NCBI GenBank assembly: GCA_003283745.1
Contig: QBWA01000005.1
Coordinates: 1 to 52,797, forward strand
Source: Prochlorococcus sp. AG-315-B03
GTDB taxonomy: Bacteria; Cyanobacteriota; Cyanobacteriia; PCC-6307; Cyanobiaceae
Reading direction: 5' to 3'
Length of the DNA: 52,797 bases
Shown: positions 4,239 through 34,902 of the stretch, in pieces
Position numbering within the stretch: the stretch's first letter is position 1
Layout: the number at the start of each line of letters is the position of its first letter
The notes under the pieces: model-generated
Database searches by the model: none
Seen by the model: only the letters and a program-made list of their open reading frames with translations
What the model was told of the DNA's origin: nothing
Program-made: the position numbers and the translations under genes

Positions 4239-7200
4239 ATGACCAGCAGCGGAAAAATCAGGATTTACGAGTTGTCAAAGGACTTAAACCTTGACAACAA
4301 AGATGTGCTTAATGCAGCTCGAAAACTTGCCATTGCAGCAAAGAGCCATAGCAGTTCAATAAGCACTCTTGAAGCCAATCAAATTAAGAATTTTCTTAAA
4401 GAGGGATCTCCACCCCCCCAAGATCAAAAACCTAGTCAAAAGAAAGGTAAAGAAATCCTTGCAGTAAAAAAAAGCCCTGCAAAGCTTCAAAAGAATGTTA
4501 GTGATACAAAAAAAACACCAAAGATAGAGAAAAACCAAAATTCACCTTCTAACTTGCCTTCATCAAATCAAAATCTGAAGGTCCCTTCTAAGCCCAAACA
4601 AACTTTAATTACACCAAAAGAAATATCCTCTTCCCACAAGCATCAACAAGCAACAAATAAAACCTCTGCGAAAGTAATAAAAGCTCCTTCTCAGCCAAAT
4701 AAACCATCACCTCCTAAACCAAGACAAGAAATAAGCACTTCAGTTCCAAAACAGCCAAATAAAATTGTTGTTCAACAGAAGATTAATAATCAGAAAAAAG
4801 AAACCCATTTAAAACCTCACCAAACAAACTCTCAAGCAGCTAAAACACCATTATCAAAAACTCAATTAACAAGTAAGCCTGAGCCAAAGAGACCATTAGC
4901 CCCTCCAAGCAGGCCTCAAATAAATCGTCCAGAGAACCAGCCAGCTTCAAACATTAGTCAAAGAAATAAACCCTTAACAAATCAACGTAGAGTACCCCCT
5001 CAAAAATCAGTTCCTAGTAATCTTCAAAGGAGCAATAATCAAAACAGACAGAACCAGAGCCCTCCTCCCAGAACAGGTCAACCACCCTCAAAGGGTAATT
5101 CTCTTGAGTTAGTTGGAGCACCCATAAGAAGAGATAAACCTATCAACAAGCTCCCCGCAAGAGACATTAGTAATAAGCCAGCAAGGCCCGGGGCCCCAAA
5201 TCGACCTGGGACTGCAAATAGACCTGTTCCCAATAATCGTGGGGGTAATAATCGCCCTGGTTCTCCTAATCGACAAGGTTCTAACAACCGTAGCGGAGTT
5301 CCAAGTCGTCCTGTTGCTGGTCAAAATCGCCCTGGTTCTCCTAATCGACAAGGTTCTTTTAATCGTCCAGGTGGACAAAATAGACCTGGCGCCCCTGTTA
5401 GATCTGCTGGAGCTCCTAATCCTAATCGTCCTACGAATCGTCCAGGGATACCTGCTGGCATGAGGAAACCAGTTGCACCAAGTGAATTAATGCAACTGCA
5501 AAAACCAAATAGTCGACCTGGCACTCCACCGCCAAGAAAAATTGATAGCACAACGAGTCCGAAGCCAAGAAGAGAAGGCTCAGATGGTGCAAAGCCACCT
5601 GTTAACAGACCAACCCCTGCAGCTGCTCCAAAACGTCCTGCTCATAGGCCTGGTGGATCACCTGCGCCTAGAAGAACAGGAAGACCTGACTGGGATGACA
5701 GCGCAAAACTTGATGCCTTAAGAAATAAATCCCCTCAAAAACAACGTCAAAAAGTTCATATAATTGGAGAAAATGATGATGCCTTAACCACTGAAACAAG
5801 TGGATTTGCCGGAGAACAACAAGCAGTTGTTCTTTCCGCAAGTTTAGCTAGACCATCAAAACCCAAAGCAAGTAAGAAAAATACAGGTAAACCACTAGCA
5901 GCAATAAGAAAACGCAAGAAAGAAACCACACGTCAAAGACAAAGAAGACGGGCTATGGAATTAAGAGCTGCAAGAGAAGCAAAGCTTGTCAGACCCGAAA
6001 TGATAATTGTTCCAGAAGACAATCTGACAGTGCAAGAACTTGCTGACATGCTTAGTCTCGAAAGTTCTGAAATTATCAAATCATTATTTTTTAAAGGTAT
6101 TACTGCAACAGTTACCCAATCCTTAGACCTAGCAACCATAGAGACAGTTGCAGAAGAATTTGGTGTTCCGGTTCTTCAAGATGATATTGAAGAAGCAGCT
6201 GCAAAAACTGTTGAAATGATTGAAGAGGCAGATTTAAAGCACTTAATAAAAAGGCCCCCTGTAGTAACAGTTATGGGGCACGTAGATCACGGAAAAACAA
6301 GTTTACTTGATGCAATTAGAAAAGCTAGAGTTGCAGCAGGTGAAGCGGGCGGAATAACTCAACACATAGGTGCCTATCAAGTAGAGACGGAACACGATGG
6401 TTCAACCAGAAAACTAACTTTTTTAGATACCCCTGGCCATGAAGCCTTCACAGCTATGAGAGCTAGAGGAACAAGAGTTACAGATGTAGCAATTTTAGTT
6501 GTAGCAGCTGATGATGGTGTTAGGCCTCAAACCCTTGAAGCAATAAGTCATGCTCGAGCAGCAAAAGTTCCAATAGTCGTAGCTATTAACAAAATTGATA
6601 AAGAAGGTTCATCTTCCGACAGGGTTAAAAAAGAGTTATCAGAGCAAAATTTATTGTCCGAAGAATGGGGAGGGGACGTGGTTATGGTCCCAGTGAGTGC
6701 AATAAAAGGAGAAAATATAGATAAACTTCTAGAAATGATTTTGCTGGTAACAGAAGTAGAGGATCTTCAAGCTAACCCAAAGAGGTTAGCCAAAGGCACT
6801 GTTATTGAAGCTCATCTTGATAAAGCAAAAGGACCTGTCGCCACTCTATTAGTACAAAATGGAACTCTCAAGTCAGGAGATGTAGTCGCAGCTGGTCCAG
6901 TACTTGGAAAAGTTCGCGCAATGGTTGATGAGAATGGATCCAGGCTTAAGACAGCAGGACCATCTTGTCCTGTAGAAGCGCTCGGTTTTAGCGAGGTACC
7001 AACTGCTGGAGATGAATTTGAGGTTTATCCAGATGAAAAATCAGCAAGATCAGTTGTAGGAGACCGAGCGACTGATGCCCGTGCGGCAAGACTTGCCCAA
7101 CAAATGGCCTCAAGACGCGTTTCTCTTTCTGCAATGTCAGGTCAAGCAAGTGAAGGAGAATTAAAAGAATTGAATATTATTCTTAAAGCTGATGTTCAGG

Positions 7201-32351: not shown

Positions 32352-32388
32352 TTTAATCGTAGAATCAATCCTTAAACCTTTCACTTAA

Positions 32389-32418
32389 TGGGGGAGACCA
32401 AAAGTCGTATGCACCCCT
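32389..32418 (+). promoter_or_regulatory. L1-target-like hairpin before rplA
   Basis: GGGG (32391-32394) pairs with CCCC (32414-32417), and inside GAC (32396-32398) pairs with GTC (32404-32406); the two helices are joined by an asymmetric internal loop with a short side and a seven-base side GTATGCA. This layout recalls the L1-binding site in 23S rRNA and in L1-regulated messengers. It lies eight bases before the rplA start and takes the place of a Shine-Dalgarno. Autoregulation is inferred. Confidence 0.45.
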
Positions 32419-32425
32419 TTTTCTT

Positions 32426-33133
32426 ATGAAACAACTCTCTAAAAGAATGACAAAGCTCGTTTCCAAGTTGGAGGAGCGTGCCTATTCACCAATTGAAGCC
32501 ATCAAATTAGTAAAAGAAAATGCAAATGCTAAATTTGATGAGACAATTGAAGCTCACATTAGACTTGGTATAGATCCCAAATATACAGACCAGCAGTTAA
32601 GAACCACAGTTGCTCTTCCGAAGGGAACTGGTCAAAACATACGTATAGCTGTCATAACTCGTGGAGAAAAAGTTTCTGAAGCAAAGGCTGCAGGGGCAGA
32701 TTTAGCTGGAGAAGAAGAACTAGTTGAGACAATAAATAAAGGTGAAATGGATTTTGATCTTTTAATTTCAACACCAGATATGATGCCAAAAGTGGCGAAA
32801 CTTGGAAGAGTTCTTGGTCCACGAGGTCTTATGCCTAATCCAAAGGCTGGAACAGTCACAACGGATCTAGTGGGAGCCATTCAAGAATTCAAGGCAGGAA
32901 AACTTGAATTCAGAGCGGATAAAGCAGGAATTGTCCATGTTCGTTTTGGTAAAGCAAGTTTTTCTCCTGAAGCACTACTCGAAAACCTCAAAACTTTACA
33001 AGGAACAATAGATAGGAATAAACCAAGTGGATCAAAAGGAAAATACTGGAAAAGCGTTTTTATTACATCTACTATGGGTCCCTCTGTACAAGTAGATATA
33101 AACGAATTACAGGACTTACAAAAAGAAAGTTGA
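32426..33133 (+). CDS. rplA: 50S ribosomal protein L1
   Basis: Builds the mobile L1 stalk of the 50S subunit and, in many bacteria, represses its own messenger. 235 residues with conserved [17 protein letters not shown], the [19 protein letters not shown] core and the [18 protein letters not shown] region. ATG at 32426. A GC-rich hairpin sits directly before it and no usual Shine-Dalgarno is visible. It follows rplK by 74 bases. Confidence 0.98.
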
Positions 33134-33155
33134 CCTTTCTATAGTAAATTAATTA

Positions 33156-33356
33156 CTTGGCTTAAGCCATAGGGCATGCGCCCAGCCCAAGACAGCAGGT
33201 AGGAATATGTTAAGCATTTATGTTTAACATCTCCATAAACCCCGCCGAGGCATTCGCAAAGATTTTTTCTTCTGGATTGAATCAACAGCGGCCTCGACTC
33301 CTAAAAAGAGATTTTGGCCGCATGTCCAGTTCTTCCCCCGATTCGATCCAATTATT
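33156..33356 (+). promoter_or_regulatory. L10-type leader RNA of rplJ-rplL
   Basis: The 223-base gap before rplJ is highly structured. CTTGG (33156-33160) pairs with CCAAG (33187-33191) around the hairpin GGGC/GCCC (33172-33175, 33180-33183). Then comes AAGACAGCAGGTAGG, a hairpin ATGTTAA/TTAACAT (33207-33230), and CCCCGCCGAGG, the order and motifs I associate with the Rfam L10 leader. Further on CGAGGC (33246-33251) can pair with GCCTCG (33291-33296), while GCGGCC (33288-33293) can instead pair with GGCCGC at 33316-33321 or at 33360-33365 over the rplJ start. Confidence 0.7.
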
Positions 33357-33884
33357 ATGGGCCGCACGCTGGAAAGCAAAAAACAGATCGTTAAAAAGTT
33401 AGAGGATTTACTCGACAACTCAGAAATGGCCTTAGTTCTTGATTTCAAGGGCTTATCCATAAAAGAGATGTCTGACTTGCGCTCAAGACTGCGAGAAAAC
33501 AATGGCGTATGCAAGGTTACAAAAAACACCTTGATGCGACAAGCCATTAAAGGAAAAGATTCCTGGAATGGTTTGGATTCTTTGCTGACTGGGACCAACG
33601 CCTTCGTTTTAATCAAAGGAGATGTTGGTAGTGCTGTAAAAGCAGTACAAGCATTTCAAAAGGAAACACAAAAATCTGAAACAAAGGGAGGTCTTTTCGA
33701 AGGCAAACTTTTGTCTTTAGAAGAAATCAAAGCGATTGGAAAACTTCCTAGTAAGGAAGCACTTATGGCTCAGATTGCAGGTGCAATTAATTCCATAACC
33801 ACCAAAATCGCTATTGGTATCAATGAAGTTCCTTCTGGAATGGCAAGATCCCTCAAACAACATTCAGAAAGCGGCGAAAGCTGA
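33357..33884 (+). CDS. rplJ: 50S ribosomal protein L10
   Basis: Anchors the L12 dimers to the ribosomal stalk; the L10-L12 complex represses its own messenger in bacteria. The 175 residues begin [20 protein letters not shown] and contain [30 protein letters not shown] and the C-terminal helix that holds L12. ATG at 33357; the first codons (ATG GGC CGC) include a GGCCGC able to pair with the leader. rplL follows after 54 bases. Confidence 0.97.
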
Positions 33885-34378: not shown

Positions 34379-34410
34379 AAAGCCGGTCAATTACGACCGG
34401 CTTTTTTTTT
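34379..34410 (+). terminator. Terminator after rplL, abutting rnhA
   Basis: AAAGCCGGTC (34379-34388) and GACCGGCTTT (34395-34404) form a perfect ten-base stem followed by a T-run to 34410. The rnhA ATG begins at the very next base, 34411. Confidence 0.95.
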
Positions 34411-34902
34411 ATGTCACAAGAAAAACAAAATTTTGCTGTTGCCGCTGCAACCGATGGCGCTTGCAGTGGAAATCCTGGCCCAGGCGGATGGGGAGCATTA
34501 ATTAGATTCGAAGATGGAAGTGAAGCTGAGTTTGGTGGTTTCAACTTAGAAACAACTAATAATCGGATGGAATTACAAGCTGCTCTATTTCTTTTACAAA
34601 AACTAAAAAACACACCATTTCATCCTTCTCTAACTATCAAAACTGATAGCAAATATCTTATTGATGGCCTAGAAAAATGGATGCCAAACTGGAAAAGAAA
34701 AGGTTGGAAAACTGCAGCAGGAAAACCAGTTCTCAATCAAGACCTGTGGAAAGCTCTTGATGATCCTCAACTACCAAAAATCAAACTTGAGTATGTTAAA
34801 GGTCATAGTGGAGAAAGAGATAATGATAGAGTTGATGAAATAGCCGTTTGTTTTTCTAAAGGCAAGAAAATATATCTAAAATCTTCCAATGATAAGAAAT
34901 AA
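34411..34902 (+). CDS. rnhA: Ribonuclease HI
   Basis: Cleaves RNA in RNA-DNA hybrids (R-loops, Okazaki primers). All catalytic carboxylates are present in order: Asp in [15 protein letters not shown], Glu in NNRMELQA, Asp in [10 protein letters not shown] and Asp in NDRVDE. 163 residues. The ATG lies directly after the T-run of the rplL terminator, leaving no room for a Shine-Dalgarno outside the terminator stem; no upstream in-frame start crosses it. It must rely on read-through or on a promoter placed before the hairpin. Confidence 0.95.

Follow-up and report, generated by a model that had tools for sequence, protein, structure and literature searches.

The leader of rplJ, the gene for ribosomal protein L10, appears from comparison of related sequences to carry in picocyanobacteria two competing folds that evolution has kept. 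In the window (the whole stretch of 52,797 nucleotides analysed here), both folds can be drawn upstream of rplJ, which occupies 33357-33884 on the + strand according to its reading frame and its relatives. Fold A consists of the helices P2 (with a CGC:GCG extension) and P6, nested, and holds both arms of a third helix, P3. Fold B consists of the L10 site (P1) together with P3, which is enclosed by P5 and lies beside the start codon. We suggest, with about as much confidence as doubt, that the leader switches between the two folds in response to L10, that it descends from an L10 transcription attenuator, and that its output has moved to translation start.

The rplJ gene follows the end of rplA (33133) and is followed by rplL; both neighbours were named from their translations. 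The nearest named relatives mark the genome as a Prochlorococcus; in one of them, strain AG-315-C08, L10 is 97% identical. L10 was detected in 350 of 400 genomes of the family, presumably Cyanobiaceae, the picocyanobacteria. Of the 208 family leaders collected, 176 are unique, and a set of 112 remained below 90% identity, with the leader of the window among them. The outgroup is made up of 37 cyanobacterial leaders (L033-L039 and L219-L248); 30 of them, found through Rfam, are the top scorers there and therefore biased towards classic leaders, and in one of these, L245, the position of the start codon is approximate. Three rows were excluded, L158 as a partial gene and L040 and L041 as not cyanobacterial. 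Given 106 rows of the gapped alignment of the family, RNAalifold yielded fragments only (four P3 pairs and short start-side helices), so the named helices were counted one by one instead. Since the percentage of paired cells cannot tell real helices from frozen ones, compensated edges were also counted on a tree of 175 leaders, computed from the rplJ sequence starting at codon 12 (L218, with a short gene, was omitted). A compensated edge is a tree edge on which both bases changed and a standard pair was retained, and slid helices served as controls. A further 30 leaders from nine genera, mostly genera already sampled, were held out as a test set, and folding was carried out on 74 leaders preselected for having the helices, nine of 83 having been dropped for too few standard pairs. 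Further upstream, the space before rplA (32352-32425) contains GGGGGAGACC; L1-binding sites precede the L1 gene in cyanobacteria, according to the available part of PMC10931766.

The elements of the leader are as follows, with the kind of evidence for each.

33158-33169, + strand: TGGC-TTAA-GCCA, a small hairpin close to the probable 5' end of the leader, read in the sequence, with similar ones seen by eye in relatives
33172-33183, + strand: GGGCATGCGCCC, a local hairpin GGGC:GCCC in fold B; in fold A its bases 1-9 serve as the 5' arm of P6
33189-33199, + strand: 5' arm of the L10 motif, P1 (AAGACAGCAGG); Rfam RF00557 alignment and co-occurrence with the 3' arm
33236-33250, + strand: TAA (33236-33238) and 3' arm of the L10 motif, CCCGCCGAGG (33241-33250); conserved presence
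33246-33257, + strand: 5' side of P2, made of CGAGGC (33246-33251), the bulge ATT and CGC (33255-33257); pairing cells, tree, held-out leaders
33274-33283, + strand: 5' arm of P5, GGATTGAATC; tree
33288-33296, + strand: GCGGCCTCG, 5' arm of P3 (33288-33293) and 3' side of P2 (33288-33296); pairing cells, tree
33316-33321, + strand: 3' arm of P3, GGCCGC; tree
33319-33327, + strand: 3' arm of P6, CGCATGTCC; arm permutation, tree, held-out leaders
33329-33339, + strand: pyrimidine-rich tract in a one-sided bulge between P5 and P3, conserved at 0.88-0.99 except 33332 (0.50) and 33339 (0.78)
33340-33349, + strand: 3' arm of P5, GATTCGATCC, 7 nt before the ATG; pairing cells, tree, conservation
33357-33374, + strand: rplJ codons 1-6, with several synonymous positions conserved too
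33360-33365, + strand: second GGCCGC, partner in P4, whose pairing with 33288-33293 is rejected; pairing cells, energy, tree

A first-pass annotation of this DNA had proposed that three GC-rich pairings in the leader exclude one another and that one of them reaches the start of rplJ. The letters and coordinates of its segments are correct (CGAGGC 33246-33251, GCCTCG 33291-33296, GCGGCC 33288-33293, GGCCGC 33316-33321 and GGCCGC 33360-33365), except that the last of these, described as covering codons 1-3, is codons 2-3 (GGC CGC), as rplJ starts at 33357. Besides these three pairings, 33134-33371 contains no perfect 6-bp complement with 5 or more G/C. Dinucleotide shuffles of the leader contain 0.62 such complements on average and reach three in 101 of 2000 cases; by sequence alone, three of them are an event of about 5%, which is weak evidence. 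The comparison across relatives supplies stronger evidence, and it is there that a signal beyond chance is seen. P2 (CGAGGC:GCCTCG) is paired in 92.3% of cells in the 112 leaders (slid controls 19-48%), with changes on both sides in 10 cells, and P3 (GCGGCC:GGCCGC) in 92.7% (slid controls 27-47%), with 19 such cells. P4, in which GCGGCC pairs with the second GGCCGC, is paired in 93.2% of cells with only two both-side cells, both at 33291:33362, its percentage being high because both of its sides are nearly invariant. Slid controls for the pairing counts of P2 to P5 span 12-54% in the same leaders. On the tree, P3 has 12 compensated edges (slid 0-3), P2 and its extension four each (slid 0-2 for both) and P4 none (slid 0-1), with 42, 43, 40 and 38 breaks for P3, P2, the extension and P4, respectively. 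Among the 30 held-out leaders, 94.0% of cells are paired in P2, 98.9% in its extension and 95.6% in P3, with slid controls at or below 61%; P4, being frozen, is paired in 98.9%.

The extension lies beyond the 3-base bulge, where CGC 33255-33257 pairs with GCG 33288-33290, so that P2 occupies the whole 5' arm of P3. Of the 100 leaders that could be assessed, 92 have 3 bp or more of it, a count made with no shuffle control after 12 of the 112 leaders were set aside as having no recognisable L10 arm. The three bases that P2 uses and P3 does not, TCG 33294-33296, are conserved at 0.96, 0.95 and 0.79, and 33297-33315 at no more than 0.70. Leaders L159-L188 of genus g18, which we take to be high-light Prochlorococcus, mostly have GAGG with CCTC of P2 when inspected by eye.

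The mutual exclusion of P2 and P3, which have 33291-33293 in common, is thus well supported by the comparison of sequences: compensatory changes have preserved each of them in the family, and one strand of P2 is taken from the 3' arm of the L10 site, as had been proposed. The capture of codons 2-3 by GCGGCC fares differently. Position 33290 is not G in 20 of the 112 leaders; the P3 partner has co-changed to a standard pair in 10 of these and the P4 partner in none, and 38 of 57 changes on the tree break P4. The annotation had named covariation of the three segments across picocyanobacteria as its check, and relatives in which one segment changes and its partner does not, with regulation unchanged, as evidence against it. 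P2 and P3 show the former; for P4, judged at the level of sequence, we find the latter, a start segment that stays fixed while its partner changes.

P5 (33274-33283:33340-33349) encloses P3 and is paired in 86.5% of cells in the 112 leaders and in 90.9% in the 30 held-out leaders, with eight compensated edges (slid 0-3) against 103 breaks on the tree. It could provide another route to the start, since its 3' arm lies inside the normal 30S footprint. P6 (33172-33180:33319-33327) joins the 5' region to the 3' arm of P3; it was first found by folding the window and then tested in relatives. A segment of the form GGG[CT]NNNN[AG]CCC lies just upstream of the L10 motif in 83 of the 112 leaders and is absent by this pattern in 29, both genus-g18 leaders among them. 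Three of the 83 are gapped in the 3' arm, and the remaining 80 form on average 8.54 of nine standard pairs. When arms were permuted among leaders, a procedure that ignores kinship, the mean was 8.24 (sd 0.035) and 0 of 2000 permutations reached 8.54. There are seven compensated edges for P6 (slid 0-1) and 21 breaks, and in the 29 held-out leaders with the segment 251 of 261 cells are paired (96.2%; slid 26-61%). The pair 33177:33322 is T-A in 35 of the 80 leaders and C-G in 33; in ten held-out leaders of genus g5 it is C-G in seven, T-A in two (L275 and L277) and C.A in one (L278). Inspection by eye of other g18 leaders revealed no P6 5' segment. In L159-L188, also by eye, there is no 5' GGGC hairpin, and a TATAAT-like box lies just after rplA.

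Folds A and B compete through shared bases, those common to P2 and P3 and 33319-33321, which both P6 and P3 need; P5 crosses P2 and P6, and it excludes them only if pseudoknots are barred. The fold energies that follow are model values without protein, from leaders selected for having the helices. For the window they are -60.7 kcal/mol for A, -63.4 for B and -54.5 with P4 forced, and P3/P5 is the free minimum. A window transcript that ends at 33315 folds into P2, and one that ends at 33352 into P3/P5. Over the 74 leaders, the predicted minimum contains P3+P5 in 26, P2+P6 in 26, P3 alone in 15, P2 alone in four, P6 alone in two and P3+P6 in one, a predicted census that divides evenly between A and B. 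The energy of A minus that of B has a median of -1.7 kcal/mol (quartiles -5.9 and 2.7), and A is at or below B in 43 of 74. P2 has a probability above 0.5 in 66 of 74 nascent RNAs ending before the 3' arm of P3. In the full-length ensemble that level is exceeded by P5 in 28 of 74 (median 0.04), by P3 in 44 and by P2 in 24. A third fold, of P3 with the outer half of P6, was tried and rejected: its energy exceeds that of fold B by a median of 5.5 kcal/mol, and it comes out lowest of the three in 3 of 74 leaders.

The kink-turn motif, AGACAGCAGG followed by CCGAGG, has both arms upstream of rplJ in 202 of 208 leaders by our own patterns. Among these 202, CCGAGG is found in 193 and the UAA in 191, the latter a count of presence and not of pairing state. 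The second pair of the L10 stem covaries, GTAGG occurring with CCTA in 37 rows. RF00557 (L10_leader) is the best Rfam match in the window's leader, in the correct place and on the correct strand, with a score of 22.4 bits that is below the gathering score of 44; a search of the window's own genome at E 0.001 returned no match. In the class as a whole, 142 of 194 genomes score above the cut-off. At E 0.001, RF00557 was matched in seven of the 21 same-family genomes listed (five without a match are not among the 21), all seven of genus g18, with E from 1.7e-4 to 7.8e-4. In the window's lineage the middle pair of the L10 stem (33195-33199 with 33241-33245) is mismatched, as A.C at 33197.33243; A.C or A.A is found at this pair in 63 of 202 leaders, and most of the others have A-T (A-U). 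It is the conserved L10 motif that points to L10 as the ligand, and we infer both L10 binding and the polarity of the leader. A second exact copy of the 11 bases of AAGACAGCAGG, at 6948-6958, has different surrounding sequence and no partner arm by eye, and is probably due to chance.

The start region differs from that of the outgroup. A Shine-Dalgarno core is present in 37 of 37 outgroup leaders (AGGAGG in 33), and a search for GGAG, GAGG or AGGA in -20..-4 found it in 0 of 208 family leaders. S1-dependent initiation without a Shine-Dalgarno sequence has reportedly been described in cyanobacteria by Mutsuda and Sugiura in 2006. T-tailed hairpins occur in 25 of the 37 outgroup leaders; in the window, P3 is followed by ATGTCCAG, with no T-run, and a terminator scan of 33080-33420 returned 0 sites. 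Cyanobacteria are not known to have Rho. A promoter scan of the same range found none, and -10-like boxes after rplA were noticed by eye. Our terminator scan flags 28 of the 208 family leaders, within the P3 hairpin (-72..-54) in L152, L153 and L156, at -91..-70 in L213, and further upstream in the others. The L213 leader (genus g50) has at this place a terminator-like GCCTCGGC hairpin with a weak T-run; the 5' arm of the hairpin could match that of the L10 site, and the leader is possibly an intermediate form. After rplL, at 34379-34411, a GC-rich hairpin followed by a T-run looks by eye like an ordinary terminator.

Most columns conserved at 0.9 or above in the computed range 33284-33374 fall in 33326-33374, which includes the first codons of rplJ (GGC in 108, CGC in 105 and CTG in 105 of 111 leaders). 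These three, codons 2, 3 and 5, make up 13%, 6.1% and 4.4% of the codons for their amino acids in the window's other long reading frames, where third-position GC is 0.22. In 57 later conserved rplJ codons that are at least four-fold degenerate, the commonest codon has a median share of 0.48 and a maximum of 0.89. The block 33326-33374 is near-frozen, with rare GC-rich codons in an AT-rich genome, and no tested pairing, that with GCGGCC included, accounts for its conservation. P7, in which TCCAGT 33325-33330 would pair with codons 4-6, was rejected: 21 of 111 leaders have C or T at 33328, where the opposing base is an invariant T. P8, a hairpin at the start, is compatible with the sequences, but neither side varies much and the block taken alone shows no surplus of folding; it is retained only as part of a rival explanation given below. 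As a repeated element, the block 33310-33380 was also rejected: the rplJ copy is the sole good match in five genomes, with two further weak short matches (E 0.9 and 1.8), and the window has one site.

We suggest that fold A would form first, during RNA synthesis, and that its start region would be loaded by ribosomes without a Shine-Dalgarno sequence. A surplus of the L10-L12 complex would clamp the L10 site and block P2, P3/P5 would form, and P5 would occlude the ribosome landing site, in place of transcription termination as the output. That the output is no longer termination we infer from a P3 without a T-run and a gene without a Shine-Dalgarno sequence. Given the B. subtilis precedent, the simplest view is that L10-bound RNA would take fold B here as well. 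Several of the results above weigh against this reading: the low probability of P5 in full-length RNA, the A.C mismatch in the window's L10 stem, the leaders that lack the P6 5' segment, the C.A pair of P6 in L278, and the many breaks of P5 and P2 on the tree. The more general form of this reading is an ancestral L10 attenuator that became a bistable start-site switch without Shine-Dalgarno sequence or terminator, in which L10, bound more than 100 nt upstream, would shift the folds and P6 would act as a counter-lock. This form admits either polarity, and we hold the case for it to be evenly balanced.

Polarity is where the nearest alternative arises. With the same folds, A could be the off state, in which a local hairpin (CGATCCA 33344-33350 with TGGGCCG 33358-33364, and the tract with codons 5-7) sequesters both the start codon and the pyrimidine tract, and P5 could free the start by removing the 3' arm; L10 would then not repress by this route, or the ligand would be a different one. 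In 69 of 74 leaders, positions -17..-1 have the higher unpaired probability in A, partly by construction because P5 is forced in B, and AUG to +16 is nearly alike in accessibility (0.38 in A and 0.35 in B). The tract (-28..-18) has a median accessibility of 0.31 in A against 0.85 in B and is more open in A in 0 of 74, which would fit the opposite polarity, and the pairs of the start hairpin have average probabilities of 0.58-0.83 in fold A. The 3' arm of P5 is also mostly more conserved than the 5' arm, and its start-pairing positions are 0.92-0.99 fixed (0.74 at the mismatched 33346); however, 33340-33342, outside the start hairpin, are 0.93-0.94 fixed as well. The near-invariant sides of this hairpin are beyond the reach of covariation, and the start block, when folded alone, shows no surplus of folding (median z -0.26, with 9 of 106 below -1). 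Moreover, L10 autoregulation represses in B. subtilis and E. coli, according to the part of PMC4538822 available. With the tract closed in A, the AUG alike and a start hairpin predicted in A, we place the repressive polarity, in which L10-bound RNA takes fold B and is off, at an even chance, and consider the opposite polarity unlikely, if worth keeping in mind.

Three other explanations seem less probable still. P3/P5 might act on transcription after all, as a pause or a non-canonical terminator, which would make the leader a plain attenuator. The overlap logic is that of B. subtilis, in so far as the available description goes, and in the outgroup the 5' arm of the T-tailed hairpin pairs over at least 5 bp with the L10 arm in 18 of the 23 leaders that have such a hairpin downstream of that arm, a modest excess over the 48% seen with shuffled L10 arms; but P3 lacks a T-run, the terminator scan was empty, and attenuation does not need a hairpin that extends almost to the start codon, so that we regard this as rather improbable. 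A constitutive structured leader, with P3/P5 serving mRNA stability or processing and P2/P6 as relics that do not switch, is somewhat less credible again. It would agree with P3/P5 as the free minimum in the window and with the 29 leaders that lack the P6 5' segment by pattern, but not with P2, its extension and P6 being paired in 94-99% of held-out cells, with compensated changes, nor with P2+P6 as the predicted minimum in 26 of 74. Direct closure of the start by GCGGCC and codons 2-3, as first annotated, we find very hard to believe: the perfect 6-bp complement and the high paired percentages speak for it, but there are no compensated edges, forcing P4 costs 8.9 kcal/mol relative to the best window fold, and among the three forced folds that with P4 comes out lowest in just 1 of 74 leaders.

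The switch that we prefer would be a base-level, explicit model for the silencing of rplJ by L10 bound at a distance, in very abundant photosynthetic cells. It also suggests a route by which a terminator-based switch could become a start-site switch upon loss of the Shine-Dalgarno sequence and the T-run. Among the matches listed, the titles and opening abstracts of open-access papers describe no alternative folds of the picocyanobacterial rplJ leader. The rplJ operon leader was included in 2005 as cluster 227, a conserved structured element in Prochlorococcus MIT 9313 and Synechococcus WH 8102 that was marked as not tested (PMC1242208, available part); to this we add alternative folds, of which that part describes none.

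In the B. subtilis rplJL attenuator, anti-antiterminator, antiterminator and terminator compete and L10 promotes termination (PMC4538822, in the part available). As there, the L10 site of the present leader lies upstream of rplJ and has a kink-turn and a UAA, and its 3' arm is common to a second structure that overlaps a third, in the same order along the RNA. The antiterminator, which overlaps both the L10 site and the third hairpin, is matched by P2 (33246-33257 and 33288-33296). Unlike in B. subtilis, the third structure in the window has no T-run and stands against the start codon inside P5, there is no Shine-Dalgarno sequence, and there is an additional long-range helix, P6. For the E. 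coli rplJ leader, it has been proposed that L10, bound at a distance, makes the RNA refold over the ribosome binding site (PMC4538822 and PMC10931766, available parts), and PMC10931766, as far as available, regards the mechanism of L10 silencing in E. coli as unresolved and holds that other phyla should be explored. The present leader resembles that system in an L10 site far upstream and in a proposed refolding towards the start, and differs from it, in a comparison made by description and not base by base, in having no Shine-Dalgarno sequence to hide.
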